Assembly: GCA_003166865.1 (NCBI GenBank)
Contig: PMUP01000056.1
Coordinates: 53,104 to 101,846 of the forward strand
Length of the DNA: 48,743 bases
Source of the DNA: Bryobacterales bacterium
Lineage (GTDB): Bacteria > Acidobacteriota > Terriglobia > Bryobacterales > Bryobacteraceae
Direction: 5' to 3'
The position numbers were made by a program, and so were the translations under genes. Below are positions 12,278 to 39,759 of the stretch, piece by piece; position 1 is the first letter of the stretch, and each line of letters opens with the position of its first letter. The notes beneath the pieces are model-generated. The model did not search any database, was not told the origin of the DNA, and saw only the letters and a program-made list of their open reading frames with translations.

Positions 12278-12729
12278 ACTTTCACCCCAGCGGCCATCTT
12301 CACGGCCTGCCGAATGCGCTGATACGTTCCGCAACGGCAGATGTTGCCCTGCATGGCTTCATCGATATCGCGATCCGTTGGCTTGGGCTTTTCGGTGAGC
12401 AGCGACGCGGCCTGCATGATCTGCCCGCTCTGGCAATAACCGCACTGAGGAACATTCACTGCCCGCCAGGCTTTTTGCAGAGGATGGTCGCCCTTGGGGT
12501 CGAGACCTTCGATGGTAGTGATGCGCTTGCCGGCGACGTCGCTCAGGTTGGTGACACAGCTTCGGGTCGCTTTGCCCTCGACGTGTACCGTGCAGGCGCC
12601 GCACAGGCCCATGCCGCAACCGAACTTGGCACCGGTCAGTTCGAGAAGATCGCGCAAATACCAAAGCACCGGCATTGCCGGATCGCCGTCGTATTGCTTC
12701 ACTGATCCATTGACTGTGAGTTGAATCAT
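12274..12729 (-). CDS. 2Fe-2S small subunit of a molybdenum hydroxylase (IorA-like)
   Basis: A 151-residue ferredoxin-like protein with both clusters of the xanthine-oxidase family small subunit. Plant-type cluster: Cys38, Cys43, Cys46 and Cys58 ([14 protein letters not shown]). Helical cluster: Cys96, Cys99, Cys131 and Cys133 ([11 protein letters not shown] and ICRCGTY). It passes electrons from the molybdenum centre to an outside acceptor. It has no signal peptide, so it probably crosses the membrane with the Tat-signal large subunit. ATGA overlaps join it to the genes on both sides. Confidence 0.95.
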
Positions 12730-13193
12730 TTGTGTTCCTCGTTGTGAATGGGGTCAACCCAGCGCACGGGGCTCGGCTCCTCCACGGGTTCGATGTTCAG
12801 GTTCACTACTACCGCTTCGTTGTCGCTTCGGACTAGCACGCACTCCAGTGTTTCGTCGCTGGACGCATTTATTTCCTGGTGCGGCACGTAAGGCGGCACG
12901 AAGATAAAATCGCCGGGCCCAGCCTCGGCGACATATTCCAGACGATCGCCCCAGCGCATCCGAGCGCGGCCGCGCACCACATAGATGACACTTTCGAGCG
13001 CGCCGTGGTGATGAGCGCCGGTCTTGGCGTTGGCGAAGATGCTGACGGTTCCCGCCCAGATTTTTTGTGCGCCCACGCGAGCGAAGTTGATCGCGGCGGC
13101 ACGATTCATTCCAGGCGTCTGCGCGGTGTTGGTGTCGAGAGAATCCTTGGGGATCACCTGCACCCCACGGGTTTTCCAGTCGACCTTTTCCAT
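12726..13193 (-). CDS. Cytoplasmic cupin-domain protein
   Basis: A 155-residue single-domain cupin. Motif 1 is [19 protein letters not shown] and motif 2 [17 protein letters not shown], with a complete His/Glu metal set. There is no signal peptide. ATG13193 is chosen over the upstream GTG13220, but neither has a clear ribosome site, so the start is uncertain. It is the first gene of the minus-strand run and its stop overlaps the 2Fe-2S subunit start. It may be a sensor or a small enzyme for the compound handled by the molybdenum hydroxylase; this is inferred from position only. Confidence 0.82.
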
Positions 13194-13251
13194 ATCGAAC
13201 CAGTTTAGCCGACTTTGCACGATTCAAGTAGGGCTATGCTAGGCTTTCAGG

Positions 13252-14175
13252 ATGGCGTCGAGGCTTGCTGCTACACTCCTTGTTGTGCTTTCAGCGAGCG
13301 GAGCAGTTCCTGACTTTCAATTGCAGAAGATCGGCAGCGGGATTTGGGCCGCGATCGTGAATGACGACGGGCTGGCCGGGGGCAACGCCGGGTTTGTGAT
13401 CGGCGACGACGGAGTCGCGGTGATCGACACCTTCCAGGATCCGCGGCCGGCGAAGGCGCTGCTCGGCGAGATTCGCAAGCTCACACCTTTGCCGATCCGG
13501 TTTGTGATCAACACGCATTATCACTTGGACCACGTCAATGGGAACGACGTATTTGCCGCCGCCGGAGCCACCATCGTGGCGCAGCGCAACGTGCGCGCAT
13601 GGATGCGCACCGAGAACATAAAGATGCTCGATCCGCCGATGACGCCAGAGAAAAAGGCGCGCGTGCAATCGCTCACGTTGCCGGCGGTGGACTTCGATAG
13701 CCATATCGAACTCTATCTTGGCTCGCGCCGAATCAACGTTCGATATTATCCCGGCCACACCGGCAGCGATTCCGTTGTTTCCGTTCCGGACGCGCACGTT
13801 GTGTTCTGCGGCGATATGTTGTGGAAGGAGCACGTTCCGAATCTGATTGATTCCTCCACCAAGGCTTGGGTGGACTCTCTCGATGCGATGCAAAAGGATT
13901 ACGGGCCGTCCACTTGGGTGCCCGGACACGGCGGTGTCGCTAATGCTCAGGATGTTCTGACCTTTCGAAAATATCTCGCCGACCTGCGCGCCGAAGTGCG
14001 CCGTGAGCAAGCCGCCGGGGAATCCGGCGATGCGCTGGTGCAGGCGCTGCTACCGGGCCTCAAGTCCAACTATGGCAAATGGGGCTTCTTCAGCGACTAT
14101 GCTGCCGCAGATATCGAACAAACGGCGCAAGAGTTGTTGGGAACGAAAAGGCTGCCGCCTAATCCTGAGCGATAG
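13252..14175 (+). CDS. Exported metallo-beta-lactamase-fold hydrolase
   Basis: A 307-residue protein with a signal peptide (about residues 1-18). The zinc motif is complete: NTHYHLDHVNGN with His89, His91, Asp93 and His94, then PGHTGSD with His169, CGDMLW with Asp188, and VPGHGG with the last His. Similar exported MBL proteins occur near quinoprotein dehydrogenases, which fits the qhp cluster next door, but the reaction is unknown. Its last 17 bases overlap the end of the convergent ABC exporter gene; both reading frames are intact, so this is a true tail-to-tail overlap. Confidence 0.88.
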   Translation: MASRLAATLLVVLSASGAVPDFQLQKIGSGIWAAIVNDDGLAGGNAGFVIGDDGVAVIDTFQDPRPAKALLGEIRKLTPLPIRFVINTHYHLDHVNGNDVFAAAGATIVAQRNVRAWMRTENIKMLDPPMTPEKKARVQSLTLPAVDFDSHIELYLGSRRINVRYYPGHTGSDSVVSVPDAHVVFCGDMLWKEHVPNLIDSSTKAWVDSLDAMQKDYGPSTWVPGHGGVANAQDVLTFRKYLADLRAEVRREQAAGESGDALVQALLPGLKSNYGKWGFFSDYAAADIEQTAQELLGTKRLPPNPER

Positions 14176-15847
14176 CCTCGAGAGTTCTGGCTTTGGCGGG
14201 ATCCAGGAAAACAGTCTGATGCGCGATGCGAGCCAGCGAAGCGCGATGCGTGATCAGGATCGCCGTGCGACCCTCGGCCACGCGGACCAGCGTTTCCGCA
14301 ATAGCACGTTCGTTGGCTTCATCCAGAGCCGAGGTCGGTTCATCCAGGACCAGCACCTTCGGATTGGCCAGCAGAGCCCGGGCCAGCGCGATGCGTTGAC
14401 GCTCGCCCGCTGAAAGAGTCTGGCCGCGTTCGGCGATGATTGCCTGGTAACCATCCGGCAACGCAAGGATCCGATCGTGAATCGAAGCGGCCTGGGCCGC
14501 GCTCACGATCTCATCGTCCGTGGCCTCGGGCCGGGCGTAGGCGATATTCTCGCGGACGCTGGCGTGAAAAAGATAGGGCGCCTGATCCACCAGCATGACG
14601 GCATGACGCACGTCGGCGAGCGGAAGATCGCGCAGATCCCGGCCGTCGATGCGGATCGCGCCCGCGTCGGGATCGTAGAAGCGGACCAGAAGATCCGCCA
14701 GCGTCGATTTGCCCACGCCGCTCGGGCCGAGGATCGCGCAGATTGTGCCGGGTGCCACCCGGAATGAGAGGTCTTCCAGCACGGCATCGCCGCCGTAGCC
14801 GAATGAAACGCGATCGAACTCGATTTCGCCGCGAACCTTGCCGAAGGGCTTCGCCCCAGGCAGGTCGGTGATCTCGGCGCGCGTATCGAACAGTTCCCAG
14901 ACTCGCGAAAGCGAGACGCCGCCCGTTACCAGATTGCTATACAGGCCCATCAGGTTCTGCACGGGCGCTAGCAGACGGAGATGGTAAGCCATTATTGCAA
15001 CCAAAGAACCCAGCTTTAACGAGCCGTCGATCACCAGCTTTCCGCCGTAGAGGAAAATCGCGGCGGTGGAGAGCGTCAGAATGGTTCCAGGAACAACGCC
15101 GGACAAGAACGACGTGAGCTGCATGCGCATGAGCGCGTCAAGGAAACTCTGATTTCGGGCGCGAAACCGCTCCACTTCACGCGATTCAGCGCGCGCCGAC
15201 ACAACCAGGCGAATGCCCAGTAGGGTTTCCAGCAGAAAGCTTCCGATGTCGGAGCTCCGCTCGCGGACCGCCCGCACGCGCGCCGCCAGACGGTGTTGGT
15301 AATGTTGCAGCGCCCAGACGCTGGCCGGAACCGCCGCCACGCTCACCAGAAACAGCCGCGGACTGAGCGCGATCATGATGGCTGCGCTGCCGATCAGAAA
15401 AACGACGTTCGATAGCACGCTCAACAAACTGTCCGCCGAGACGCGCTGCACCTCAGCGATATCATTGTTAATGCGCGAAACCACATCGCCCAGCTTCCTC
15501 TGCGCCCAGAACCGCGGCGAGAGCGTTTGCAGGTGCCGGTACAGTGCCACGCGCATATCAAAGAGCACGGAGGCTGAAACCCGGACGTACTGATAGCTGG
15601 AGACGATGTTCAGCACAAATCCCAGCACGGTAACGCCGAACATCAGCCCACTGACGATCAGCAGCATGCGCAGATTGCGTTTCAACAGCGCGTCATCGAT
15701 CAGAAGTTTGGAGATGTAAGGTTGCAGAAGGCCGAATCCGGTGGCGGCAATGCCTGCCAGAAGCACAAAAACCAAGCGGGGCCAATAGGGGACGATGAAT
15801 CGCAACGCGCGGCGGTAGCCATCGAGGAGCGTCCTTTGGCCCGGCAT
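14159..15847 (-). CDS. qhpF: ABC exporter (permease-ATPase fusion), probable QhpF
   Basis: A 562-residue half-transporter with an N-terminal six-helix membrane domain (about residues 20-310) and a C-terminal ATPase: Walker A GPSGVGKST, Q-loop VDQAPYLF, signature TLSAGERQRIALARAL and Walker B VLVLDEPTSALD. In Paracoccus the qhp locus encodes such a transporter, thought to export the cross-linked gamma subunit, which lacks a signal peptide. Adjacency to and divergence from qhpA (116 bases apart) support that role; sequence alone would also fit a lipid or peptide exporter. ATG15847 is chosen over GTG15874; no strong ribosome site helps. Confidence 0.78.
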   Translation of the reverse strand: MPGQRTLLDGYRRALRFIVPYWPRLVFVLLAGIAATGFGLLQPYISKLLIDDALLKRNLRMLLIVSGLMFGVTVLGFVLNIVSSYQYVRVSASVLFDMRVALYRHLQTLSPRFWAQRKLGDVVSRINNDIAEVQRVSADSLLSVLSNVVFLIGSAAIMIALSPRLFLVSVAAVPASVWALQHYQHRLAARVRAVRERSSDIGSFLLETLLGIRLVVSARAESREVERFRARNQSFLDALMRMQLTSFLSGVVPGTILTLSTAAIFLYGGKLVIDGSLKLGSLVAIMAYHLRLLAPVQNLMGLYSNLVTGGVSLSRVWELFDTRAEITDLPGAKPFGKVRGEIEFDRVSFGYGGDAVLEDLSFRVAPGTICAILGPSGVGKSTLADLLVRFYDPDAGAIRIDGRDLRDLPLADVRHAVMLVDQAPYLFHASVRENIAYARPEATDDEIVSAAQAASIHDRILALPDGYQAIIAERGQTLSAGERQRIALARALLANPKVLVLDEPTSALDEANERAIAETLVRVAEGRTAILITHRASLARIAHQTVFLDPAKARTLEAIAQD

Positions 15848-15963
15848 GAGTACTTTGTTAATAGCACATGTCACGGGAAACCGACGCGAGGCGAGATGAC
15901 TCCCATAAAGAACTTTTCTATACCCGGCGGCGCGGCAACGGTGTATGATATCCGAATAAGGTT
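15848..15963. promoter_or_regulatory. Divergent intergenic region between qhpF and qhpA
   Basis: This 116-base gap must hold start signals for both directions. A TATGAT hexamer at 15944-15949 could be a -10 box for qhpA, but no good -35 sits at the right distance and it lies very close to ATG15964. The qhpA ribosome site is weak (AAGG just upstream). Absence of a strong constitutive promoter would fit activator control, as known for qhp genes elsewhere, but no regulator gene is in the window. Confidence 0.3.
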
Positions 15964-17697
15964 ATGAAAATTCTGCTTGCATCGATTCTGGTAATACCAC
16001 TGCTTGCACAGGGCCAGAAGCCGCAAGCTGCCACGTCGGCAGAGCCGGCTAAACCGGCGCCCGAAGAGGGCATTCCGGTCACGAGTCAACTGGTGATCTC
16101 CAAGTGCGGAGCTTGCCACACCAAGGACGAAAAGGGCAACATGCTGCGCATCTCCTGGGAGCGCGCCACGCCCGAAGGCTGGGAAGAGGCCATCAAGCGC
16201 ATGGTGCGTCTGCGGGGCGTCAGCCTGACACCGGACGAAGCCCGTTCGATCCTGAAGTATCTCGCAACCTATCACGGGCTGGCTCCCGAAGAGGCGAAGC
16301 CGGTCATGTACTACGCCGAGCACAGGATTCTAGACGAGACCAACATCCCGACCGACAACGTGCGGGGCGCGTGTACGAATTGCCATCCGATGGCGCGTCC
16401 GCTGTCGTGGCGCCGCTCGCCAGAGGATTGGAAATATCTCGCCAATCTGCACATCGCTCTCTATCCGCAGGCCGACGAGGCATTCCGGTTGGGGATCAGT
16501 GCCGGCGGTTTCGATGAAGACCGCCATCACCAGGAACCCGGCGCACCCCTGCCGGTGGACGAAGCGCTCGCGTTTTTCGGTAAGACTGCTCCACTCAAAA
16601 CGCCCGACTGGGCCGCCTGGCGCGCTCGAATGCGTGCGCCGAAGCTGACCGGACGGTGGATCGTCTCCGCCTCCCTTCCGGGCCGGGGCAAGTTTTACGG
16701 AGACATGGAAGTGGCGGCGACCAGTGGAACCGACGACGAGTTCACCACGCGCGTGAAGCTGACCTCGGTGAAAGACGGCTCGACGATCTCGCGGACTGGC
16801 CACAGTTTGGTCTACGCGGGCTATGCGTGGCGCGGCCGGTCTAAAGGGACGCCGGCAGCCAACGCCGCTCCCGACGATCTCGCCAGCGAGACGCGCGAGG
16901 TGATGTGGATTTCTCCCGATCAATCCATGGCGGAAGGCCGCTGGTTTTGGGGCGAATATCAAGAGTTCGGTTTCGATGTGAAGCTACAGCGCCCCTCCGC
17001 CGATCCGACTTTGCTCGGCGCCGACCGCTCGTTGCTCAAGACCGGTTCGCAGGGGACGCGCGTCCGTCTGATCGCGCAAAGCTTGCCCGCGCAGATTGCG
17101 CCCGCGGATTTGGACTTTGGAACCGGCGTCACGGTGCGCCGCATTGTTTCCCACACGCCCACCGAAATCGTGGCGGAAGTGGACGTAGCGGCGGACGCGG
17201 TGCCGGGCAAACGGGACATCGCCTTCGGCCGGTCTGTGCTGCAGAGCGCCATGGCGGTGTACGATCGCGTCGACTACATCAAAGTGACGCCGGACTCGGC
17301 CCTGGCCCATCTGGGAAGCGAAAAGCACCCCAAGGGTTACCAGCAGTTCGAGGCCGTCGCCTACCAGCGCGGCGCGGACGGCAAAGTGCACACCGCGGAC
17401 GATGTCGAACTCGGACCCATCGACGTGAATTGGTCGGTGGAAGAGTTTTACTCTGTTTATGGCGACGATGACAAGGAGTTCGTCGGCTCGCTAAGCAACG
17501 CCGGCCTGTTCACTCCAGCCTCCGATGGCCCCAATCCGCAGCGTAAATTCAGCCGCAACAACTATGGCGACGTTTGGGTGGTGGCGACGGCGAAGGACGA
17601 AAAAGACAAGGACGGCAGGCCGCTCATCGGCAAGTCGTATTTGGTGGTGACGGTTCCAACCTACATAAAGTGGGATCAGCCGGAGGTTGGACAATGA
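15964..17697 (+). CDS. qhpA: Quinohemoprotein amine dehydrogenase alpha subunit (diheme)
   Basis: A 577-residue periplasmic protein with a Sec signal peptide (about residues 1-17). Two c-heme motifs are present: CGACH at residues 48-52 and CTNCH at 137-141, matching the diheme domain of QHNDH alpha. The rest is beta-rich, as in the known three beta-barrel domains. The subunit takes electrons from the CTQ cofactor of the gamma subunit and passes them to a soluble cytochrome or azurin-like acceptor. It is first in the plus-strand run A-D-C-B-G; its stop overlaps the qhpD start as ATGA. It is somewhat longer than the Paracoccus protein as I recall it. Confidence 0.95.
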   Translation: MKILLASILVIPLLAQGQKPQAATSAEPAKPAPEEGIPVTSQLVISKCGACHTKDEKGNMLRISWERATPEGWEEAIKRMVRLRGVSLTPDEARSILKYLATYHGLAPEEAKPVMYYAEHRILDETNIPTDNVRGACTNCHPMARPLSWRRSPEDWKYLANLHIALYPQADEAFRLGISAGGFDEDRHHQEPGAPLPVDEALAFFGKTAPLKTPDWAAWRARMRAPKLTGRWIVSASLPGRGKFYGDMEVAATSGTDDEFTTRVKLTSVKDGSTISRTGHSLVYAGYAWRGRSKGTPAANAAPDDLASETREVMWISPDQSMAEGRWFWGEYQEFGFDVKLQRPSADPTLLGADRSLLKTGSQGTRVRLIAQSLPAQIAPADLDFGTGVTVRRIVSHTPTEIVAEVDVAADAVPGKRDIAFGRSVLQSAMAVYDRVDYIKVTPDSALAHLGSEKHPKGYQQFEAVAYQRGADGKVHTADDVELGPIDVNWSVEEFYSVYGDDDKEFVGSLSNAGLFTPASDGPNPQRKFSRNNYGDVWVVATAKDEKDKDGRPLIGKSYLVVTVPTYIKWDQPEVGQ

Positions 17698-19163
17698 CGG
17701 CACCCATGACAGCGCCAATTGCAACCAATGGCGCGCGGGTTTACCGTTTGGGCGAATTTCACCGCTTTGACGCGGGAGGAGCGCATTTTCTGTACCTGGT
17801 CCCGGCGGGCGCGATCTTCGCGGTGGACACTGCCGTGGGAAAGCTTATCGACTGCCTGAGCTCGGGCGAACTGCCGCATGAGCAATTGATGGAGGATCTG
17901 GCGGCCAGCGGTCTCATGATCGAGGACGCCGACGAGTTGATTGCGGAGATGTATCACGCCAACGTGATCGTCGCGAACGACTCCGTTCCAGATCAGCCGC
18001 AACCCCTCCCCGACGTTTTTCCCATCCAGACGCTGGTGATGAACCTCACCAACCAGTGCAACTTGTCCTGCCAATACTGCTACGAGTTCGGCGCCGACAA
18101 ACTGGCCACGCCGGAAGGCAAGCCGAAATTCATGGACCTGGAGACGGCCAAGACTTCGGTGGATTTTCTTCTGGCGCAATCGGGCGACCGGCGTTCGATT
18201 CACATCACCTTCTTCGGCGGCGAGACGCTGATGAATTACCCGCTTTTGAAGGAAGTGGTGGCGTACGCCAATGAGCGAGCCAAGGAGCAAGAGCGCCACA
18301 TCGACTTCAGCCTGACCACTAACGCCACGTTGCTCACGCCTACGATCATCGAGTTTCTCTCCGAGAACCACATCGGTGTCACCGTGAGCATGGATGGGCC
18401 GAAGGAGATGCACGATCATCTGCGGGTGTTCGCCAACGGCAAAGGCAGCTATGACATCATCGAGCCGAAGGTGCGCGCACTGATTCAAAACCATCGCACG
18501 CGGCCGATTACGGCGCGCGTGACGCTGACGGCGGGGGTGTCGGACGTGATCCGCATTTTCCGCCACCTGAAGCAGGACCTGGGATTCCACGAGGTCGGCT
18601 TCGCGCCGGTGACCACTTCGCCCAATCAGCTTTATGCTATCAATGCGACCGGTATGGATAGCGTATTGGATCAGTTCCACACGCTGGCGGACGAATATCT
18701 CGAGCATGCGTTGCGCGGCGAATCGCACGGCTTTTCGAACGTCAGCGACACTTTGGCCGAGCTATGCCAGGGCGTGAACAAGTCGCATCCTTGTGGCGCC
18801 GGCCTGGGCCTGCTGGGTGTGGGACCCTCCGGGGACATCGCACCGTGCCACCGTTTTGTAGATTCCGATGCCCATGCGCTGGGACACATTTCCACTGGCA
18901 TCGACCGCGCGAAGCAGGCCGATTTTCTGCGTCGCGGTCACATCGATTCCAAATACGATTGCCACACCTGCTGGGCGCGACCGCTGTGCGCTGGCGGCTG
19001 CCATCACGAAGCATTCGTGCGCTACGGAGACACGGGCCATCCCAATCTCCACTATTGCGATTGGATCCGGGACTGGACCGACACGTGCCTTAGAATTTAT
19101 GGCGCGATCGCGGCCGGAAATCCGGGGTTTTTACAGCAGTTTGCAGAAAGGAAAGCATCATGA
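17694..19163 (+). CDS. qhpD: Radical SAM/SPASM maturase of the QHNDH gamma subunit
   Basis: A 489-residue protein. The N-terminal part (about 15-100) resembles a peptide-recognition domain. The radical SAM cluster motif is Cys122-x3-Cys126-x2-Cys129 (QCNLSCQYCYE), followed by FFGGETLMN. The C-terminal SPASM region holds many cysteines (358, 367, 385, 423, 426, 432, 436, 455, 465) for two more Fe-S clusters. QhpD is known to make the Cys-to-Asp/Glu thioether cross-links in QhpC before export. The start is ATG17694 (ATGA overlap with qhpA) with GGAGG at 17682-17686, not the longer in-frame reading inside qhpA. It is also coupled to qhpC by ATGA. Confidence 0.96.
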   Translation: MTAPMTAPIATNGARVYRLGEFHRFDAGGAHFLYLVPAGAIFAVDTAVGKLIDCLSSGELPHEQLMEDLAASGLMIEDADELIAEMYHANVIVANDSVPDQPQPLPDVFPIQTLVMNLTNQCNLSCQYCYEFGADKLATPEGKPKFMDLETAKTSVDFLLAQSGDRRSIHITFFGGETLMNYPLLKEVVAYANERAKEQERHIDFSLTTNATLLTPTIIEFLSENHIGVTVSMDGPKEMHDHLRVFANGKGSYDIIEPKVRALIQNHRTRPITARVTLTAGVSDVIRIFRHLKQDLGFHEVGFAPVTTSPNQLYAINATGMDSVLDQFHTLADEYLEHALRGESHGFSNVSDTLAELCQGVNKSHPCGAGLGLLGVGPSGDIAPCHRFVDSDAHALGHISTGIDRAKQADFLRRGHIDSKYDCHTCWARPLCAGGCHHEAFVRYGDTGHPNLHYCDWIRDWTDTCLRIYGAIAAGNPGFLQQFAERKAS

Positions 19164-19501
19164 AACACATGCGAGCGTTGAACAAGAAAGCCGGGCGCAT
19201 TGACGATTATGTGGTATCGCGTACCGAGGATGTCGTCGGCTTGCAGGATCATCCGTCCACCCAGCAGCGCCCCCATGTTCCCATGGGTTGCGCATTGATG
19301 TTCACGCCCGGCTGGGAAGTTGACGCGGCCGGTGGCACGGCCGGCCTTTGTCAGCCCGTGGAGCGCGACATCTACGACTGTTTCGTCAGCTGCTATTGGC
19401 CGGCGCAGGTTCCCGATCATTTGAACAATGCGCCGGACTGGACCGCCAAATGCGCCACCGCCACCAAGGACTGGCGAAATCTGGATCTGGTATTCCCATA
19501 A
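19160..19501 (+). CDS. qhpC: QHNDH gamma subunit precursor, CTQ-bearing cross-linked peptide
   Basis: A 113-residue precursor with no signal peptide. With an offset of 37 every cross-link residue of the solved QHNDH gamma subunit falls in place: Cys44-Glu53, Cys64-Asp70 and Cys78-Asp86 for the thioethers, and Cys74-Trp80 for cysteine tryptophylquinone (7-16, 27-33, 41-49 and 37-43 in the mature protein). This predicts a leader of about 37 residues, longer than the 28 known in Paracoccus, to be removed by QhpE. Asp70 matches the proposed catalytic base. There is an additional Cys98, six residues before Asp104. ATGA and TAATG overlaps join it to qhpD and qhpB. Confidence 0.97.
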   Translation: MKHMRALNKKAGRIDDYVVSRTEDVVGLQDHPSTQQRPHVPMGCALMFTPGWEVDAAGGTAGLCQPVERDIYDCFVSCYWPAQVPDHLNNAPDWTAKCATATKDWRNLDLVFP

Positions 19502-20583
19502 TGTGGCGACTGCTCTTGGGGTTCACTGCTTTTGCCGCGCTCGCAAGCGCTGGCACCTTGTACCTGCCAGCCTACCCCGCCGCCGTTCTCGTTTTCGACG
19601 AGGCGCAGGCCCAGATTGTCGACCGTATTCCGCTCGAGACCGGCACTCCCATGTCGATTCGCCTGTCGCCGGATCACAAGAAAATCTACGTCACCACCAT
19701 CGACCACAATGGCATCGAGGTGATCGACGTCGCGACGCGCAAGGTGATCAATCATTTTGTGCTCAATACGCCGACCAAACAATATCGCTTCTATACGGGA
19801 ACGCCGGACCCGGCGGGCAAGCTGTACTACGCGGTGACCAAGGAAATTACGGAGTTTCCAGAACACTATGAAGTCGCCAAGCCGAAGTACACCGTAGTTG
19901 ATCTCGAACAGCAGAAGATCGTCAAGACCGTGGACATTACCAAGGAAGAAGAGCCCCAGAACCAAGGCGACTACGGAGTCGGAGCACTTGAAGTTTCGCC
20001 CGACGGCAAGCTCTTGTACCAGTTCGGCGAGAAGATCACCATTCTTCAGGCCAGCGACTTCAAAGTGCTCGATCATATTGACCTGGCCAGACCGGATGCT
20101 CCAGGGATGGAGAACGTGCATTTCGGAGGCGATCTCGATTTGATCAATTCGCCCGGAGAGCACACCGCGCTCTTCGTGTCAGCCGACCCCATCGTTCACA
20201 ACCACGTGTTCGGTCTGGCTCGTTTCGATCTGAGCACGAAGCAGATGGACTTCAACCCGATTGGACCCGCTCCGGCCGGTATGGCGGGCATCGAAGTCAC
20301 GCCGGACAAGAAGTGGGCCTACACGGTGGTGTCCAACGGAATCCACGGGAACAAGCGCTGCGAGTTCTGGGCGATCGACCTGACCAGCGACAAAATCACA
20401 CAAAAGGCCGAGGTCCCTTGCCGCACGCGCTTCACGCTCGGCATCTCTACTGACGGCAAGAAGCTCTATATCTACGGAGCCGGCTTTGATATCGAAGTGT
20501 ACGATGCCGCCACGCTCAAGTACGAGAAGACCTGGGATCTGAACAACGACGTGACCTACGCCGGGATCGTCGTCATTCCTTAA
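19501..20583 (+). CDS. qhpB: QHNDH beta subunit, seven-bladed propeller (copy 1)
   Basis: A 360-residue exported propeller: a signal peptide (MWRLLLGFTAFAALASA) then GTLYLPAYPAAVLVFD and repeated YVTN-type blades. In QHNDH this subunit holds the gamma subunit and forms part of the active-site cavity. The start ATG19501 shares its A with the qhpC stop (TAATG). A second copy at 34480-35544 on the other strand is roughly three-quarters identical by eye; copy 1 has a slightly longer loop (EEEPQNQGDYGVGA) in the middle. As the copy in the A-D-C-B operon, this one is the likely partner of QhpA and QhpC. Confidence 0.95.
   Translation: MWRLLLGFTAFAALASAGTLYLPAYPAAVLVFDEAQAQIVDRIPLETGTPMSIRLSPDHKKIYVTTIDHNGIEVIDVATRKVINHFVLNTPTKQYRFYTGTPDPAGKLYYAVTKEITEFPEHYEVAKPKYTVVDLEQQKIVKTVDITKEEEPQNQGDYGVGALEVSPDGKLLYQFGEKITILQASDFKVLDHIDLARPDAPGMENVHFGGDLDLINSPGEHTALFVSADPIVHNHVFGLARFDLSTKQMDFNPIGPAPAGMAGIEVTPDKKWAYTVVSNGIHGNKRCEFWAIDLTSDKITQKAEVPCRTRFTLGISTDGKKLYIYGAGFDIEVYDAATLKYEKTWDLNNDVTYAGIVVIP
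19670..19757 (+). repeat. Best-conserved segment of the inverted qhpB repeat, copy 1
   Basis: These 88 bases match the reverse complement of 35288-35375 with about seven differences by eye. The match lies in coding sequence (PDHKKIYVTTIDHNGIEVID). With the whole qhpB genes it forms a long imperfect inverted repeat with arms about 15 kb apart, a possible site for recombination or gene conversion. Confidence 0.8.
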
Positions 20584-20584
20584 G

Positions 20585-21556
20585 GTGATCATCCGAGGTG
20601 ACGGGGTCGCGGCATATTGCTGCGCACATCTGCTTTCCAAGGCTGGATTCCAGATCGAACTCCAACCGGTGGATCGCCCGCGATTGCCGGTAATCCTGCT
20701 GGGCGAGCAGGCACTCGCGCTCATCCGCGATATTTTCGATCAGCCTGGTCTGTTCGCTGATCTGCCTCGAATCCGGAAGCGCATCGTAGCGTGGGGGCCG
20801 AGCGCCAAACCCGGTACGGTGGAACATTCCGCGATCGTAGTGTCGGAAGAGTCCCTGCTCGACGCCATCCGGCCGGATCTCGTGCCATTGGGCAGCCAGG
20901 AAGTACATTGGACGATCGTTGCAGCGCGGCCGCTGCCCGCCCCAAGCGTGGAACATCGCTTCGGCTCGCGCACGGCTTCTGCAGTGCCGGTAACGCTGAA
21001 CGAAAATTCCGATCCTGCCGCGTGCTGGATCGAATCGCTGGGAGACGGATGGCTGTTCCTGGTGCCGGGCTGGCTCCTCTCGGTCGGTGCAGCCGCGGAA
21101 ACGTTACTCGCCGGGAGCCGCGTTGTCGCCGCGGAGATGGCCGAGCGGGGCCGTCCGTTAGCTGAATTCCCGGCCTACGCGCGAATCGCCTCGCCTCTAT
21201 GCGCGCCCGGTTGGCTGGCCTGCGGGACTGCGGCGATGGCCTTCGATCCAATCTGCGGAGACGGAACCGCGCATGCGATCCGCGAAGCGATCCTGGCCTC
21301 GGCGGTGATCCGCGCGCTTGCCCAGGGCGAACACTTAGAGGAGTTGCTATCCCACTATGAGGCGCGCCTGACAGCCGGATTCCGCCGTCACTTGATGCTC
21401 TGCCGGCAGTTTTATTTGTCCGGCGGCACGGGGGCGTTCTGGACATCCGAACTGGACGCCATCGATCACGGCATCCAATGGTCCGATGCCAAGCTCCGGG
21501 CTCACGCCGGTTTCCGCTATCAGTTGCGAGGCTTGGAACTGGAAGCGGTTCTCTGA
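20585..21556 (+). CDS. qhpG: FAD-dependent monooxygenase-like protein, probable QhpG
   Basis: A 323-residue protein. An N-terminal dinucleotide motif (RGDGVAAYCCAHLL, residues 4-17) and DPICGDGTAHAIREAI at 221-236, the second FAD motif, mark it as a flavin monooxygenase relative. QhpG is known to hydroxylate the CTQ tryptophan of QhpC. Position one base after qhpB and in the same orientation supports this. It is shorter than usual flavin monooxygenases (near 400 residues), with a compact middle part; no frameshift is evident. The start is GTG20585. Its last 37 bases overlap the end of the opposite-strand cytochrome gene. Confidence 0.82.
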   Translation: MIIRGDGVAAYCCAHLLSKAGFQIELQPVDRPRLPVILLGEQALALIRDIFDQPGLFADLPRIRKRIVAWGPSAKPGTVEHSAIVVSEESLLDAIRPDLVPLGSQEVHWTIVAARPLPAPSVEHRFGSRTASAVPVTLNENSDPAACWIESLGDGWLFLVPGWLLSVGAAAETLLAGSRVVAAEMAERGRPLAEFPAYARIASPLCAPGWLACGTAAMAFDPICGDGTAHAIREAILASAVIRALAQGEHLEELLSHYEARLTAGFRRHLMLCRQFYLSGGTGAFWTSELDAIDHGIQWSDAKLRAHAGFRYQLRGLELEAVL

Positions 21557-22632
21557 ATTCCTTCATTGCCGGCTGCCAGCAAGGCTGCCGTGGCATAGCC
21601 GGTGGCGGCGTCGCTCATAAACTTCTCGGGAACCGTGCCGGCTTCATGCTTGTGGTTCATCGATTCCGCGGCCCAATAGCCTTGCGGGTTCTGGTGCGAT
21701 CTGAGCCACGCCAGCGCCCTTGACAAGCTCGCCTGCGGCGGCTGGACACCCGCCTGCTCGGTCGTGAACGCAACCAGCGCGGTGGCGTAACTGTTCGACG
21801 CAGTAGAGGCCGACGACGGCGCCGCATCGCGCTGCTTCCACTGGCCGAGTGATTGGATGCTCCATCCGCCATCCGCCTCTTGTTTGCGCCACAACTCATC
21901 CAGGATGGCCTGCTTGTCGGCGGCAGGCAACAAATCTCGCAGCTTGGACGACGCCCACAGCAGGAACAGCCGGTTATGCAACGGTTGCGTCTTTTGCCCT
22001 TCCCGCAGATAGGCTTTTAGCGCGGCTACGTTCTCCCGGATCTCCGGGCGAGCTTGATAGTCGGCCGGAGCCAGACCGGTAGCCAGGGCCGCCAGCGCGG
22101 CGCCATAAAAAGCCGAATCCTTGGTCTCCCAGGGATCGAGATCGAAGTCGGACCAGAGCCAAGCGCCCTTGTCCGGCCCGCTCTTCAACTGCAGCGACCA
22201 CATGCGATCGAAAGCCTTTTCCCCTTCCGGGCTCAATTTGCCGCGCGGCGCGTCGTCCATGGCCAGGACCAAGGAGGAAAGCACCACCTGTGCACCATAC
22301 ACCTGGTCGATAATCACGCCCTTGAGGCCCGCGAACAGATCGTTGGCATCGGTGCGGATCACGGTGGCCCGCATGCTGGCCACCAGGACGTTTTCGTATA
22401 GAGTGGGGCCGGTCTTTTCGCCCAAGGCCTGCCGCAGCAAGGGCCGCGTCAATAGGTAAGTTAAACCGGTGTGGCAAGATACACACGCCACCCCCGAGTG
22501 CATGGCCATGGGCCACGCGATCCATTCCTTTTGGCGCGAATCCATATACCGCTCGGCCAACTGAGCGTTCCAGTCGGCACAAAAAGCGGGCGCGACTGCA
22601 AGGGTGAGTAGAGCCGCAAGACGAATCGACAT
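21520..22632 (-). CDS. c-type cytochrome with terpene-cyclase/prenyltransferase-like alpha-barrel
   Basis: A 370-residue exported protein (signal peptide about 1-19, ending CADW). One heme c motif is present, CVSCH at residues 50-54. The rest is helical and has QW-like repeats such as KQEADGGWSIQSLG and HQNPQGYWAAES, as in squalene-hopene cyclase-type alpha/alpha barrels. No cyclase DxDD acid motif is obvious, so it is probably a heme protein using the barrel as scaffold. It faces qhpG with a 37-base tail overlap and could be an electron partner of QHNDH, but this rests on position only. Confidence 0.85.
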   Translation of the reverse strand: MSIRLAALLTLAVAPAFCADWNAQLAERYMDSRQKEWIAWPMAMHSGVACVSCHTGLTYLLTRPLLRQALGEKTGPTLYENVLVASMRATVIRTDANDLFAGLKGVIIDQVYGAQVVLSSLVLAMDDAPRGKLSPEGEKAFDRMWSLQLKSGPDKGAWLWSDFDLDPWETKDSAFYGAALAALATGLAPADYQARPEIRENVAALKAYLREGQKTQPLHNRLFLLWASSKLRDLLPAADKQAILDELWRKQEADGGWSIQSLGQWKQRDAAPSSASTASNSYATALVAFTTEQAGVQPPQASLSRALAWLRSHQNPQGYWAAESMNHKHEAGTVPEKFMSDAATGYATAALLAAGNEGIQRTASSSKPRN

Positions 22633-22716
22633 AGGGGTCCTCGTTAGTTCGGAGTATAGCCCGGATTGAGATCACCGGTCCAGCGCAAACTTTGCGCAAC
22701 TTGCACAAGGTTAGTC

Positions 22717-22745
22717 TTGACACGATTGCAACAGTTGGCTATACT
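22717..22745 (+). promoter_or_regulatory. Near-consensus sigma-70 promoter
   Basis: TTGACA at 22717-22722, a 17-base spacer, and TATACT at 22740-22745. This is a perfect -35 box with one mismatch in the -10 box (consensus TATAAT) and ideal spacing. It points towards the TonB receptor gene, with transcription expected to start near 22752, giving a leader of roughly 335 bases. Confidence 0.7.
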
Positions 22746-22780
22746 CGACTCCAAATTTCATCGAACCCACGTTGGTTTTG

Positions 22781-22790
22781 TCTTTATAGC
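22781..22790 (+). repeat. 10-base direct repeat TCTTTATAGC, left copy
   Basis: Identical to 23010-23019. The two copies bracket 219 bases inside the leader of the TonB receptor gene and could be a target-site duplication. No inverted ends were seen just inside the repeats. Confidence 0.45.
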
Positions 22791-23009
22791 AGGGGCGGCG
22801 GACGCAACGGTGCGCCCTCACTTTTGAAAGCTAAAATAGTCGTCCAACTGATTGCAGTGTAAATGTATCCGGTAACGCGAGCCATCTTCCAGCAGCAGAG
22901 CTGTTGCAGTTTGCGGAAGGTGCGATTGCCACGTGAGGTTGGCTTGAGCTCCCCGATGAGCCGCCGAATGCGCTCGGCATAAGGTCCATCGAAAACTTTG
23001 ATGGGCATT

Positions 23010-23019
23010 TCTTTATAGC
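23010..23019 (+). repeat. 10-base direct repeat TCTTTATAGC, right copy
   Basis: Partner of 22781-22790. It lies 67 bases before the receptor start codon and is followed by a T-rich stretch. Confidence 0.45.
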
Positions 23020-23086
23020 TTTTTTATGGCTTCTTAATGTCGCCCGTGAATGGCAGGACCGCTCGAAATTCAGAAGGAGAGATCTG

Positions 23087-26000
23087 ATGTCCTCTGCATG
23101 TTCCCTAACATACCCGGTTTCTTTGGTATCTCGTGATCGCCGGTGGATGCGTTTCGTGTTTCACCTGGCTCTCGTGGTTTCTTGTGTTCTGGCTTTCTGT
23201 CAGGCAAGCCACGCTCAGTCCACTTTCGGGACCGTGCTCGGCACCATCAAGGATCCGTCGGGTAGCGTGGTTGCCATGGCGACAGTGAGTCTCATGAACA
23301 CTGGCACGAACGCGGAGAAAACGGCCACTACCAACGCTAACGGTGGGTATGAATTTGTAAACGTCGAAATTGGAAATTATAAGCTCACGGTGGAGGCCCC
23401 CGGCTTCCAAAAGACCGAGTACCAGGCCTTCGATGTTGCCGCCCGAGCCACCATGCGTATCGATGTGGATTTGAAGGTCGCCTCGCAAGCTACCTCGGTG
23501 ACCGTCGAGGCCGTGGCGGTGCTCCAGACCGACGCCTCCAGCGTATCGGAGACCAAGGGCAGCCTGGAGCTGATCGACCTTCCGGTAGCTATCGCTACCC
23601 GTTCCTCCGGGTCCACCAGCGCCTATGCAACCTTAACGGCGCAGCCGGGCGTGCAGATCGATAATTCAAACAATATCGCAGTTTCCGGAGCGACGCAGTC
23701 CCAACTCTCCTTCAGCATCGACGGCATCAGTACCGTCGGACCGGGGACCCTGGGCGCGCTGTCCGAATTATTCCCCTCCTTCAACTCCATCGAAGAAATC
23801 AAGATCAGCGAAGACCTAAATCCGGCCGAGTTCGGAGGGGTGGCCGACGTGACCACCATATCGAAGTCGGGGACCAACGAGTTCCACGGAGGCGTATTCG
23901 AGAACGTTCAGAATACCAACTTCAATGCCGCCGACACGTTCAGCCACGTAGTCACGGAAGACAAGATGAACAACTTCGGTATTTACCTGGGCGGACCGGT
24001 CATCTTTCCGAAACTGTACAATGGCCGCAACAAGACCTTCTTCTTCGGAAGCTTCGAAGCGCTTCGATTGCCGAAGTCGGAGACCTTTGTCAACAGCGTT
24101 CCCACCGCGGCGATGCGATCTGGCGATCTTTCCGCTTATCTGTTACCGGCCAATGGCGGCTCGGCTAACGCGCTGACCGGCTACCCAAACAACCAAATTC
24201 CCGCGACCGCATTAAATCCTTTTACCCAGAAGCTGTTGGATTTGCTCTATCCATTGCCCAACTACGGCCCTCCGGGCGCTATCTCGAATAACTATGTAGG
24301 TTCGTATCAGATTCCCATCAATAGCGCCCAGGGCGATGTCCGCCTGGATCAGAGCTTTGGCCCCAAGCACATGTTCTATGTCCGATACACTTACAAAAAT
24401 CGTCGCATCGAAATCCCGCAGCAGCAGGGTTTTTATCCCAGCAACCCAAGCAGCACACTGATTGGAGGCGTCTCGACTCCCCAGATCTATAATTCCCTCG
24501 CCGCTTCCTACAATTGGGTTATTTCTCCGAGTGTGGTAAACGAGTTGCGCGGCGGCTTTAGCGTGAGTCATACCAACACCACCGATGCACTAACATCCCA
24601 GCAAGCCGCAAACGCCCTGGGCCTCACCAGTGGCCCGGGAGCTTTGCCAGGCCCCATCCCTCCCGGATTCGACCTGCCGACCATCACTATCACCGGATTT
24701 ATGGGATACCAGGCTCAATCCAACGACATAAATCCGCACCAAGGCACCTTCGAACTCACCGACAACTTAACTTGGACGAAGGGTAAACACACCTTCAAGT
24801 TTGGCGCTGACTTCCGGTATCTCGAAAGTCTCAACAGCGAAGTCTTCAACGACTATCGAATGGGTCAGTATCAATTCAACGGCTCGGTGATGAGCCAGTA
24901 CTTTTGCCCGCCCGCTCCCGCTGCATGCCCATCCAACGCGGCGGTTCCAATGGCTTCCCTCCTTCTGGGCTATCCTGACCTCACCGCCATCGCCACCGTT
25001 TACAACCCCGACACTTATGCCTACGCGAACGCCTATGCGCTTTTTGTGCAGGACGATTTTAAAGTCTCGCAGTCCCTCACCCTCAACTATGGCCTGCGCT
25101 GGGAATACCATCCCGGGTTCAAAGACGCCTACAACGACATGGTGAATTTCGATCCCTACTACCAGAACATTGTGAATGGGAGGAATACTGGGGCGGTTAT
25201 CGTCGACAACCAGACTAACCTCAATACGAACATTAATCCGGGGTTTGTGCAGTCCATCTATCCCACGCCTCTGGTACTGGCTTCAAAGGCAGGCGTACCC
25301 GCCGATCTGCGTGACGTCTCCAAGCTGGACTTTGCGCCGCGCGTGGGCTTCGCCTGGCGTGTTTTCAACAATAACAAAACTGTTCTGCGTGGCGGCTATG
25401 GCCGCTTCATTGAGTCTCTGTTGAGCGGTACGGCGATCGACGGTTGGTCGGTGGGTTCGAGCGACGTAGGATTCTTCACTCAGAACTTTGGCAGCAATGG
25501 CAAGCCGACCGCTATCGCGCCCTATTCGTTCCCTTCCAACATCGCGCAACCAGGGACACAGTTCTTCGATCTTGCCGTCCAGGTTCACTACAAGGATCCG
25601 ATCGTCGAGGAGTGGAACCTCACTCTGGAACAGGAGCTGGGCAAAGGAGTTGTCTTCCGCGCTTCCTACGACGGAAACCATGCTTATAATGTTCCGACGG
25701 CTGCGAATGCGGACCAGCCTCCCGTGAATACCGCGGGGTTCAATGCCGCAAGTACACAAAACGCTATTCCATTTCCGCTGTTGGCGTACATTGATACCAC
25801 GAGCCCTCTCGGCTTTGCCAACTACAACGCCGCGACATTCTTGATCAAGAAGCACTCGAAGAACTTCCAATTCGAGATCGCTTACTCCTACACGCGGGAT
25901 TTGTCCAACGTCAATGGAGCGCCCGTTGCGAGCACCGCAGGCTTTGCAAACGAACTCGGCGATACCTTGGAAGATCCCTACCATCCTGGTCTGGACTACG

Positions 26001-28789: not shown

Positions 28790-30196
28790 ATGGCAAAAAC
28801 GAACCTCGCCAACCGTGACATCGCGACGGCGATTCACCCCTACACGAATCTGAAGGCGCACGAGGCCGAAGGTCCGCTAGTGATCAGCGAGGGCGATGGG
28901 GTTTTTGTCCGCGGTGAAGACGGCAAGATGTATCTCGAAGGACTCGCCGGGCTGTGGTGCGCGAGCCTGGGATTTTCCGAGCGGCGGCTGGCCGAGGCCG
29001 CCTACCGCCAGATGTTAAAGCTGCCCTTTTACCACACGTTCGCTCATAAAGCGACCGATATCGGTATAGAACTCGCCGAAAAACTCCTGAGTATTGCCCC
29101 GGTTCCGATGACCAAGGTGTTTTTTGTGAACTCAGGCTCGGAGGCCAATGATACAGTAGTCAAGCTGGTTTGGTATTACAACAATGCCGTCGGCCGTCCA
29201 AACAAGAAGAAGATTATCAGCCGCACCAAGGCATATCACGGCGTAACTGTGGCCAGCGCCAGTCTCACCGGGCTCGCGAACAACCATCGCGATTTCGACC
29301 TGCCCATCGACAAGATCTTGCATGTCGAGTGCCCGCATTTCTATCGCTTCGGACGGCCGGGCGAAACCGAAGAGGCCTTTGCCAGCCGCATGGCCGATTC
29401 GCTAGAGCAACGCATTTTGAGCGAAGGTCCCGGCACAGTGGCGGCATTTATTGCGGAGCCGATCATGGGCGCCGGCGGTGTACTTCTGCCACCTGCGACC
29501 TATTGGGAGAAAATCCAGGCCGTTTTAGGAAAATACGACGTTTTGTTGATTGCCGATGAAGTCATTTGCGGATTCGGACGTACGGGCGAGATGTGGGGAA
29601 CTACCACGTACGGTTTGAAGCCCGATATGATCACCTGCGCCAAGGCGCTCTCCTCCGGCTACATGCCGATCGGCGCGGTCATGGTCTCGGAAGCAATTTA
29701 CGCTGCGCTGGTGAAGCAATCCGAAAAAATCGGCGTGTTCAGTCACGGCTTCACCTATAGCGGCCATCCGGTAACCTCGGCAGTCGCTCTGGAGACGCTG
29801 AACATCTACGAAAAGGACGACATACTGTCTCACGTGCGCCGCATGGCGCCGCGAATGCAGGCCGGGTTGCGGCGGTTCGCGGACCATCCGCTGGTGGGCG
29901 AGGTGCGGGGGATCGGGCTGATCGGAGCGATCGAGTTGGTCCGGGACAAAGCGACGAAAGCGCCGTTCGACGCGGCCCAAGCTGTCGGCCCGTTTCTTGC
30001 CAAACGCGCTCATCAGCATGGTCTGATACTGCGTGCATTGGGCGACTCCATCGCATTCTGCCCTCCGCTCATCATCAACGAAGCGGAAATCGATTTGATG
30101 TTCGAGAGATTTGCTCTCGCCCTCGACGACACAGTGGCGATGGTTCGGGAGCGCGGACTGGTTGAGAACGCGCTGATCCCCGCACTGGCGCAGTAA
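28790..30196 (+). CDS. Class III PLP aminotransferase (omega-amino acid/amine:pyruvate type)
   Basis: A 468-residue cytoplasmic enzyme of full family length. NSGSEANDTVVKLV binds the PLP phosphate, AYHGVTVASASLTGL follows, LLIADEVICGFGRTG has the Asp that pairs with the pyridine nitrogen, and the lysine in TCAKALSSGYMPIGA forms the Schiff base. Overall features resemble putrescine or amine:pyruvate aminotransferases (SpuC-like). It would transfer the amino group of an amine or omega-amino acid to pyruvate, in keeping with the amine oxidases nearby. It is a single gene converging on the amidase at 30207. Confidence 0.92.
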   Translation: MAKTNLANRDIATAIHPYTNLKAHEAEGPLVISEGDGVFVRGEDGKMYLEGLAGLWCASLGFSERRLAEAAYRQMLKLPFYHTFAHKATDIGIELAEKLLSIAPVPMTKVFFVNSGSEANDTVVKLVWYYNNAVGRPNKKKIISRTKAYHGVTVASASLTGLANNHRDFDLPIDKILHVECPHFYRFGRPGETEEAFASRMADSLEQRILSEGPGTVAAFIAEPIMGAGGVLLPPATYWEKIQAVLGKYDVLLIADEVICGFGRTGEMWGTTTYGLKPDMITCAKALSSGYMPIGAVMVSEAIYAALVKQSEKIGVFSHGFTYSGHPVTSAVALETLNIYEKDDILSHVRRMAPRMQAGLRRFADHPLVGEVRGIGLIGAIELVRDKATKAPFDAAQAVGPFLAKRAHQHGLILRALGDSIAFCPPLIINEAEIDLMFERFALALDDTVAMVRERGLVENALIPALAQ

Positions 30197-30206
30197 ATCG
30201 GCCGCG

Positions 30207-31655
30207 CTAGGCGTGCACCGGAGGAATGCGTGCGCTCCACGGCCGGGCCTGCTCCAGTTGCGCCGCCAGCCGTATCAATACGTCCTCGCGCGCGTACGCC
30301 GCGCCCAATTGGACGCCCACTGGTAAGCCGTCCTTCGTCCAATGCAACGGCAAGCTGATCGCCGGCTGTCCGGCGAGATTGAAGTACGCCGTGAACGGCC
30401 ACCATAGCGCTGATGTTTTCAAACGGGCCGAATCCATGCCGAGCGCTCCCAGCTTGGGCGTGACGGTTCCGGTCACCGGCGTGATCAGAATGTCGTAGCC
30501 CCCGCGGCGGTCATGGTCCCACCAGCCGGCGAACGCGCGAGTGAACGTGTCCATGTCTTCCAGCGCCACGACATAATCGGTCGCGCTGACGCCGCGCGCG
30601 CGATCCAGCCAATACAGCGTGTCGGGATCGAGATTGTCGGGGCCTGCCTTCTTTTCCAATTTGCGCTCGAAGGATTGCAGCGCGGAGAGCAGCCGGACCG
30701 GCCAGATGCGATTGAAAATGGTCGACGTTTTCGGATCATCCAGAATCGCGGGATGAGCCAGCTCCACGGAGTGACCCAAGGTTTCGAGCAGTTTTCCCGC
30801 TTGCTCGACCGCTTCCTCACATTCAGGATGAAGACTGCCGTCGAGCGTCGCGGGCAGTCGATTCCACAGGCCGATTCTCAGCTTGCCAGGGTTAGCACCA
30901 ACTTCACTCGCATAGGATCGAACAGGAACCGGCGGCGGCATGGGATCGCCTGGCAACGACCCGGAGGCGAAATCCATGCAGGCCGCCAGATCGCGAACGG
31001 TCCGTGTCTGGAATCCCTGCACGCTCACCGGAGTGAGCCATTCCGTGGATGGCCAAATGTTGATGCGGCCCCGCGTGGGCTTCAATCCCACCAGCCCGCA
31101 AGCCGCCGCAGGTAGGCGAATGGACCCTCCGCCATCGCTGCCGTGAGCGACTGGAACCATCAGAGCAGCCACCGCGGCACAAGAACCGCCACTCGATCCC
31201 GCAGCCGTCCGCGTAGTATCCCAAGGATTTCGCGTCGGGCCCCAAGCGAGCGGCTCGGTGGTCGGCACCGCACCGAACTCCGGCGTGTTGGTTCGGCCGA
31301 GGTTGATGAAGCCGGCGGCCTTGATGCGGCGCGCCAGTTCCGTGGTCACGCTCGCGACGTAGCCATTCTCTTTCAAGAACCGCGAACCACTGGAATCCGG
31401 CTCGCCCGCCGTTGTGCAACCGAGGTCCTTGGTGAGGAACGGAACACCGCGGAACGGACCTTCCGGCAAGTGCGCCGTACGCGCCTCGTCGCGAGCTTTT
31501 TCGAAGCGCTCCCACACCACCGCGTTCAATTGCGGGTTCACCTTCTGGATACGCTGGATCGCAGCGTCCACAAGCTCCAGTGGCGACGCCTCGCGCCGGC
31601 GAACCAACTCGGCTTGCGCCGTGGCATCCATGATGTTAAGTGCGGAGGGGTCCAT
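30207..31655 (-). CDS. Amidase (amidase-signature family)
   Basis: A 482-residue enzyme with the Ser-cisSer-Lys triad region: the lysine in [10 protein letters not shown], and the glycine-serine-rich stretch [18 protein letters not shown] followed by [17 protein letters not shown]. The family hydrolyses amides to acids and ammonia or amines. ATG31655 is preferred; a TTG at 31667 is also possible and would overlap the upstream stop. It has no signal peptide. It is the last gene of the minus-strand run starting with paiB, so it may release amines for the oxidases. Confidence 0.9.
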
Positions 31656-31663
31656 GTTCGCTT

Positions 31664-32130: not shown

Positions 32131-32145
32131 TGGACCTCAGTGATC

Positions 32146-34457: not shown

Positions 34458-34479
34458 GCGGGCGACACGGGGATAGACC

Positions 34480-35544: not shown

Positions 35545-35557
35545 ATATTAGATAAGG

Positions 35558-36187: not shown

Positions 36188-36232
36188 ATTTGCCCATTGC
36201 AACATATCGGCAAGGAAGGATAAACTCGCAGC

Positions 36233-37735: not shown

Positions 37736-37744
37736 ATTAATTAG

Positions 37745-39703: not shown

Positions 39704-39759
39704 GTTGCCGCCTCTCCAAGCGAGAACGGTTCGCTTAAATCTGATGCTAGTATAAGTGG
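39704..39759. promoter_or_regulatory. Divergent control region, amine oxidase and permease
   Basis: In this 56-base gap TATACT (minus strand, 39754 to 39749) is a plausible -10 box for the copper amine oxidase, leaving a leader of about 38 bases with its ribosome site. No good -35 was found. For the permease the gap is too short for a usual leader, so that mRNA may be nearly leaderless. Confidence 0.3.

Follow-up and report, generated by a model that had tools for sequence, protein, structure and literature searches.

A predicted quinohemoprotein amine dehydrogenase system with a compact QhpG and a qhpE gene outside the substrate operon in a Bryobacterales bacterium

Introduction

The plasmid loci for quinohemoprotein amine dehydrogenase (QHNDH) in Paracoccus pantotrophus (NZ_CP044425) and Pseudomonas nitroreducens (NZ_CP049141) combine a qhpA-qhpD-qhpC-qhpB (A-D-C-B) core with qhpE, qhpF and a flavin monooxygenase gene, and in both loci qhpE follows a qhpB. 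In P. pantotrophus, A-D-C-B-E-F form one run, with the genes for the presumed QhpG and an AraC protein on the opposite strand, one on each side. Excerpts of a 2021 study describe the arrangement, order and strands of qhp genes as variable (PMC7876137); they also present QhpD, QhpE and QhpG as single-turnover enzymes, a property that its authors tie to co-transcription with qhpC. Here we analyse the qhp genes of a Bryobacterales bacterium (assembly GCA_003166865.1, 6.67 Mb in 107 contigs) in a stretch of 48,743 nucleotides of contig PMUP01000056.1 (positions 53,104 to 101,846, forward strand), hereafter the window, together with whole-genome profile searches for genes at the level of gamma, qhpE and qhpF.

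The window shares with these two loci the A-D-C-B core, qhpE, qhpF, a flavin monooxygenase gene and the position of qhpE behind a qhpB. Unlike them, it has qhpF divergent from qhpA, qhpE about 12 kb past qhpG and behind a second qhpB, a compact QhpG, and no AraC regulator in view. Novosphingobium sp. RL4 (L222) and Acetobacter malorum LMG 1746 (L187) carry the same gene set with a compact QhpG gene after qhpB; theirs is a co-directional A-D-C-B-G-F-E run with a single qhpB in the stretch, whereas the set is split in the window. An initial annotation of the window had placed the Paracoccus maturation genes in one array, which fits A-D-C-B-E-F and fails for the presumed QhpG gene on the opposite strand. 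As judged from its genes, the window likely encodes a complete QHNDH system of the cysteine tryptophylquinone (CTQ) type that would use a compact QhpG, a qhpE acting in trans and a second beta subunit, the latter probably as an alternative isoform.

Results

The qhp genes of the window

Profile searches identified the following genes.

14159-15847, minus strand: qhpF-like ABC exporter, 562 aa from the ATG at 15847, divergent from qhpA; PF00664 and PF00005
15964-17697, plus strand: qhpA, alpha subunit; TIGR03908, 549.5 bits; two haem c motifs, CGACH and CTNCH; signal-like N-terminus (by eye)
17694-19163, plus strand: qhpD, radical SAM crosslinking enzyme; TIGR03906, 631.7 bits with the longer frame 17574-19163; motif CNLSCQYC
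19160-19501, plus strand: qhpC, gamma subunit precursor with leader; NF037958, 133.6 bits
19501-20583, plus strand: qhpB1, beta subunit; TIGR03907, 71.6 bits, under cut-off; signal-like N-terminus (by eye)
20585-21556, plus strand: compact qhpG, flavin monooxygenase, 323 aa; NF049967, 64.5 bits, under cut-off
33822-34457, minus strand: qhpE, subtilisin-like leader protease; NF049966, 135.4 bits, under cut-off

The first three core genes exceeded the cut-offs of their models (274 bits for qhpA, 453 for qhpD and 50 for qhpC), identifying a QHNDH alpha subunit with two haem c motifs, a QhpD maturase and a gamma subunit. Alignment of the mature part of gamma to 1jmx_G and 1jju_C showed that the crosslinking Cys and acidic residues and the Cys and Trp of CTQ are all kept (how the crosslinking residues pair with each other is presumed here). 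qhpB1 resembles PDB 1jju_B (E 2.9e-7). Reading of the gene borders revealed a shared ATGA for A/D and for D/C, a shared TAATG for C/B and a gap of 1 nt between B and G; the region 15964-21556 on the plus strand is the tightly overlapping A-D-C-B-G run that the initial annotation had described. Its assignment of the DNA to a probable acidobacterium agrees with the closest qhpD genes, most of which lie in acidobacterial (Bryobacterales, Solibacteraceae) metagenome-assembled genomes. A scan of 13200-23100 found promoter-like sites at the level of shuffled sequence and terminator-like sites slightly above it.

The gamma gene is single in the whole genome. The opposite-strand exporter (longest frame 14159-15874), likewise proposed in the initial annotation, carries ABC exporter domains and scored 1193.6 bits, with the next-best ABC gene in the genome at 247, leaving one qhpF-level gene. 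L162 and L163/G478 have copies, 84-86% identical, that likewise diverge at this position. No QhpF model is among the 25 of 188 NCBIfam matches listed for the window; synteny and the score gap point to QhpF as the gamma exporter, its gamma specificity being putative. The qhpE frame contains the catalytic Asp-His-Ser motifs (DSG, HGT and GISFA), its best start is the proposed one at 34457, and QhpE is its best family, the next reaching 22 bits. The genome holds one qhpE-level match (135.7 bits); the next two, 48.7 and 43.5 bits, fall in open reading frames (ORFs) of 605 and 618 aa. The genome-wide score gaps rule out that qhpF or qhpE is a chance family member, and neither has a further copy of its level elsewhere in the genome. 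The set is indeed split, as had been noted, with the protease gene on the opposite strand outside the substrate operon.

qhpE is displaced in many gamma loci

We examined how often qhpE stands apart in related genomes. Gamma was found in 29 of 396 phylum-sample and 53 of 200 family-sample genomes, one of these under cut-off; the locus set comprised 92 gamma loci in 78 genomes, with a weak G585 match left out. All qhpE counts in this section are among the matches listed. qhpE lies on the same strand and no more than 8 kb downstream in 55 of the 92 loci, on the other strand within 20 kb in 11, including the window, on the same contig yet far away or upstream in three (3.7 Mb away in G458), and off the contig despite at least 8 kb of following sequence in nine. 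By this measure qhpE is displaced, meaning without a co-directional copy up to 8 kb downstream, in 23 of 78 decidable loci, the other 14 of the 92 being undecidable. Six of the 23 are extra clusters whose sister cluster has an adjoining qhpE (G514:C61, G479:C12, G518:C167, G377:C105, G535 at 65375 and G532 at 43539). G424 and G471 gave no qhpE-model match at E <= 1e-12.

The NF049966 cut-off was passed in 19 of the 78 gamma-carrying genomes. Matches in long ORFs that began only at about profile position 30, together with weak ones, were treated as generic subtilases and left out, as were a second qhpE-level match in G241, one in G077 and a partial one in G479:C145. G285, G333 and G391 have placeholder contig sizes; all are co-directional cases, so the displaced count is unaffected. 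Of 14 control genomes, the gamma model matched none, the QhpE model four or three depending on the search and the QhpG model seven, none over cut-off. Weak QhpE and QhpG matches are thus unspecific, since both models also match control genomes below cut-off.

The A-D-C-B core is nearly constant across loci; G, F and E change place and strand. Displacement of qhpE is common and not peculiar to the window, and variable qhp order has already been published. The initial annotation had seen in this layout a different view of how much maturation machinery must be coexpressed: the split is real, but it is not special. That qhpE lies outside the substrate operon matters nonetheless because QhpD, QhpE and QhpG are single-turnover enzymes, a property linked to qhpC co-transcription. 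The frequency of displacement had been missed before, as had the shortness of QhpG and a second beta gene directly before qhpE.

A second beta subunit gene and a shared island

That gene, qhpB2, stands with other genes beside qhpE.

32146-33825, minus strand: gamma-glutamyltranspeptidase (GGT), PF01019; overlaps the end of qhpE by 4 nt on the same strand
34480-35544, minus strand: qhpB2, second beta subunit, 22 nt upstream of qhpE; 74% identical to qhpB1
37745-39859, minus strand: copper amine oxidase (CuAO), PF01179; TVGNYE motif (topaquinone, TPQ, type); syntenic companion of qhpB2
39760-41196, plus strand: amino acid permease (AAperm), PF00324; syntenic companion

Two relatives share this island. 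With signs marking strands and hyp a hypothetical protein, the order is F- A D C B1 E- B2- CuAO- AAperm+ in L162, where E and B2 converge on B1 directly after it and lie 16 nt apart, and F- A D C B1 G SQ- TonB hyp PepSY E- (amidohydrolase) B2- CuAO- AAperm+ in G478. Contact between B2 and qhpE is kept in two of the three genomes (window and L162), and the copper amine oxidase gene comes after in both relatives. Compared with G478, the window has an additional cupin gene after the TonB receptor, genes for an aminotransferase, an amidase, a MerR-type protein and GGT between PepSY and qhpE, and, from B2 to CuAO, genes for an FMN-binding protein and another amidase. The distance of qhpE in the window arises because intervening genes separate the two convergent halves of a single shared island. 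No match to the GGT gene was found in the G478 and L162 stretches.

Trees grouped the B2 copies of the window, L162 and G478 in one clade (support 100/99) and the B1 copies of five genomes in another (100/99). The beta duplication predates the split of the three genomes, since B2 and B1 copies form separate clades. Between the B2 genes of the window and G478, dN was 0.09 and dS saturated. qhpB2 is an old paralogue under purifying selection. G514 and G533, of the window's genus, have an extra beta gene beside cupin-hyp-PepSY with no qhpE match adjoining; among the matches listed, each has a single qhpE-level gene, which belongs to a different qhp cluster. This beta gene is B2-like by place, but its orthology to qhpB2 is not supported: it is 70% identical to both B1 and B2, and the tree assigns it to neither.

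Positions 28790-41196 of the window also make up an amine-use island, which encodes a class III aminotransferase, the two amidases, GGT, the FMN-binding protein, the copper amine oxidase and the permease. Only the oxidase and the permease are in syntenic place in G478; most of these genes lie outside the part shared with it.

A compact form of QhpG

The window QhpG has 323 residues versus 429 in 7CTQ and ends before the C-terminal winged-helix domain, given as residues 349-429 of 7CTQ in the excerpts of PMC7876137. It was not filed as a canonical QhpG because it misses the NF049967 cut-off and lacks this domain. Its structure model (pLDDT 91.4) had 7CTQ as the best PDB match (E 2.2e-14, TM 0.71 by query length), and the two proteins have in common the catalytic-domain fold and the RxVxW, GW and DP motifs. 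All 17 compact proteins scanned matched the QhpG model with E-values of 1e-5 or lower, the best being 2.5e-23. The gene directly follows qhpB in the window, G478, G514, G533, Novosphingobium and Acetobacter. A truncation or frameshift was considered and rejected, the same compact form being present in 38 of the 78 gamma-carrying genomes and in two Acetobacter loci.

Mutation of five residues in the Pseudomonas putida enzyme disabled or weakened it, with loss of activity or affinity, according to the same excerpts (PMC7876137). Arg70, Val72 and Trp74 are kept in 17 of 17 compact proteins, and Glu42 is replaced by Ile, Leu or Val; Arg47 is kept as Arg in one of the 17. Alignment by hand showed Trp183 changed to Phe and Arg314 kept. 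The sites of Glu42, Arg47 and Arg70 drift within the family, since full-length acidobacterial QhpG proteins vary there too: Arg47 and Arg70 are absent from all ten inspected, and Glu42 from four. Context and fold together suggest that the compact protein may work like QhpG as the Trp hydroxylase.

Hydroxylase types across relatives

Full-length QhpG was counted when an NF049967 match of at least 176 bits reached profile position 395 or beyond, with G277 added (250.9 bits, ending at 361). By this criterion it occurs in 29 of the 78 gamma-carrying genomes, five of the 78 passing the NF049967 cut-off. Eleven genomes have neither QhpG form, and in nine of these the qhp cluster contains another protein, here called X, with four invariant Cys; in eight of the nine X genomes X is followed by Y, a UbiU-like U32 protein. 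Y was not found in the stretches of G458 examined (X was sought genome-wide, Y in selected stretches). G424 and G562 have none of compact QhpG, full-length QhpG and X. The three types showed zero overlap among the 78 genomes by the stated criterion (Fisher p 3e-10 alongside these counts, relatedness of genomes ignored). This exclusivity holds with NF049967 matches of about 140-196 bits ending near positions 311-352 left uncounted; our guess is that these are LodB/GoxB-like. Counting them would break it: they occur in seven compact-QhpG genomes (G443, G461, G435, G518, G579, G541 and G517), in two of the nine X genomes (G259 and G446) and in G424. Four weaker X-like matches (259-328 bits) lie on contigs other than gamma's in the full-length-QhpG genomes G116, G041, G253 and G191. 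Two hydroxylase types were found within one genus in g1, g2, g250, g251, g264 and g276.

The X genes lie as follows.

L141:11541-13491, X-Y pair
L102:9012-10984, X-Y pair
L070:11311-13220, X-Y pair
L077, L089, L115, L093 and L155, X-Y pair
L205, X-Y pair directly after qhpD
L080, X alone

Six loci have the order A-D-C-B-X-Y-F-E, with X-Y in the position that the compact QhpG gene occupies in Novosphingobium and Acetobacter. The Cys spacing is C-Xn-C-X18-C-X3-C in X (10 sequences), and Y starts with C-X6-C (9 sequences). In the excerpted literature, UbiV and UbiU bind [4Fe-4S] via CXnCX12CX3C and CX6CX16CX38C, respectively (PMC6747719), and U32 oxidases hydroxylate without O2, with prephenate as the likely oxygen source (PMC10470549, PMC11574389). 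Y shares PF01136 with these oxidases (115 versus a cut-off of 22 in two scanned) as well as the CX6C start; its UbiU matches of 87.8 and 95.8 bits are weak and far under the cut-off of 440. Ten X proteins scanned gave no NCBIfam match, no convincing Pfam match and no UbiV or U32 match. A reading of X as a recognisable UbiV found no support: its AlphaFold model reached pLDDT 54, PDB fold matches were not significant, and the X-versus-Y profile probability was 3.8%. PDB searches gave no sequence relative of X at E up to 1 and none of Y at E up to 0.01, and a search for X on plasmids returned only one weak Roseburia match.

The non-overlap of the three types suggests that X-Y takes QhpG's place in these relatives and may replace it by O2-independent Trp hydroxylation. 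We found no paper joining QhpG replacement with U32 oxidases in the limited literature searched. Whether Trp hydroxylation of the CTQ precursor is more generally an exchangeable module, carried out by full-length QhpG, by compact QhpG as in the window or, in relatives with neither, by an Fe-S, U32-type X-Y pair that is mostly encoded between qhpB and qhpF and works without O2, is in our estimate evenly balanced.

Regulators, neighbours and side loci

No AraC helix-turn-helix (HTH) match was found at E <= 0.001 among the 40 window ORFs scanned with Pfam, as the initial annotation had supposed; AraC_binding/cupin matches without an HTH lie at 2126-2911 and 12726-13220. Two further neighbours are as follows.

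31696-32130, minus strand: MerR-type HTH ORF, PF13411; same strand as qhpE; possibly incomplete
21520-22632, minus strand: alpha/alpha-toroid-like protein with CVSCH motif, PF13243 at 9.5e-6, just under cut-off; recurrent qhp-cluster neighbour

By eye, the C-terminal part of the MerR ORF fits its family poorly and looks frameshifted, with a tail of cupin type, and this regulator may be decayed. The toroid-like protein is present in 30 of 53 gamma-positive versus 44 of 147 gamma-negative family genomes (Fisher p 8e-4, kinship ignored); a hand count puts its gene no more than about 9 kb from gamma in 11 of these 30 genomes.

A second alpha gene, G000:C92:223086-224600 (L213, L217), is 60% identical to qhpA, scores 426.6 bits, over cut-off, and lies at a contig end; the 9 kb downstream gave no match to beta, gamma or QhpD. 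Extra alpha genes with weaker scores occur in L105, L114, L118 and L122. L063 and L066 (G514:C61 and G533:C29) are divergent qhp-like loci in which A, C and B are present and no QhpD match occurs in the stretch, perhaps representing another gamma-subunit type.

Discussion

In the proposed system, QhpD would crosslink QhpC by three thioether bonds, the compact QhpG would dihydroxylate the Trp of QhpC, QhpE would remove the gamma leader and QhpF would export gamma, with alpha and beta reaching the periplasm by predicted signal peptides. QhpE would be supplied in trans from a convergent unit, behind the second beta gene, and would need no place in the qhpC operon. qhpB2 would most likely provide an alternative alpha-beta2-gamma isoform, in an amine-use island that also encodes a copper amine oxidase.

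Several observations weigh against this proposal. The qhpE frame (33822-34607, 135.4 bits) is below the NF049966 cut-off of 165, both beta subunits (71.6 bits for qhpB1 and 70.4 for qhpB2) are below the TIGR03907 cut-off of 223, and the window QhpG is far below the NF049967 cut-off of 240. Of the five mutation-sensitive residues, three (Glu42, Arg47 and Trp183) have no equivalent in the compact QhpG. In G478 an opposite-strand frame of 589 codons, amidohydrolase-like by eye, stands between qhpE and B2, which therefore do not form one operon there. Finally, the solitary second alpha gene exists, and B2 could serve that alpha instead.

This last possibility, in which B2 belongs to a separate enzyme or an alpha2-beta2-gamma form and is no alternative for the main enzyme, appears unlikely. 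It draws on the score of the solitary alpha and on the lack of a beta, gamma or QhpD gene of its own in the downstream 9 kb; against it, the gene is on another contig, at the very end, and because of that position its upstream side is out of sight. B2 and qhpE might also be what remains of another qhp cluster that was mostly lost, with only qhpE of importance and B2 a passenger. The pair does look like an old B-E junction, because qhpE follows qhpB in the Paracoccus and Pseudomonas loci, and whole qhp clusters do multiply, since G514 and G533 carry three gamma genes each. However, B2 is intact and under purifying selection, and the window, L162 and G478 have all retained it, G478 even with a gene between it and qhpE; we consider a relic rather improbable.

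The compact protein, too, could be something other than the Trp hydroxylase of this system, with a flavin enzyme encoded elsewhere acting in its stead. The best NF049967 match of the genome is indeed another gene (C1:71579-72445, 76.8 bits versus 64.5), and the missing equivalents of the three sensitive residues fit such a view. The compact gene nevertheless directly follows qhpB in all six settings listed above, full-length QhpG by the stated criterion is found in none of the 38 compact-QhpG genomes, the top fold match of the protein is QhpG, and RxVxW and the equivalent of Arg314 are kept. We regard substitution by another flavin enzyme as very doubtful and favour the compact QhpG as the predicted hydroxylase.

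Lineages in which qhpE is distant, by up to megabases, or QhpG is compact would be natural tests of the idea that links single turnover to the operon, and those with a compact QhpG would also test the purpose of the winged-helix domain. If the exchangeable-module view is true, QHNDH maturation would need no oxygen in bacteria with the X-Y pair, and the window would represent one of three solutions. Replacement of QhpG by X-Y would mean that a protein-derived quinone cofactor could be made without oxygen and would extend U32 oxidases to a new type of substrate.

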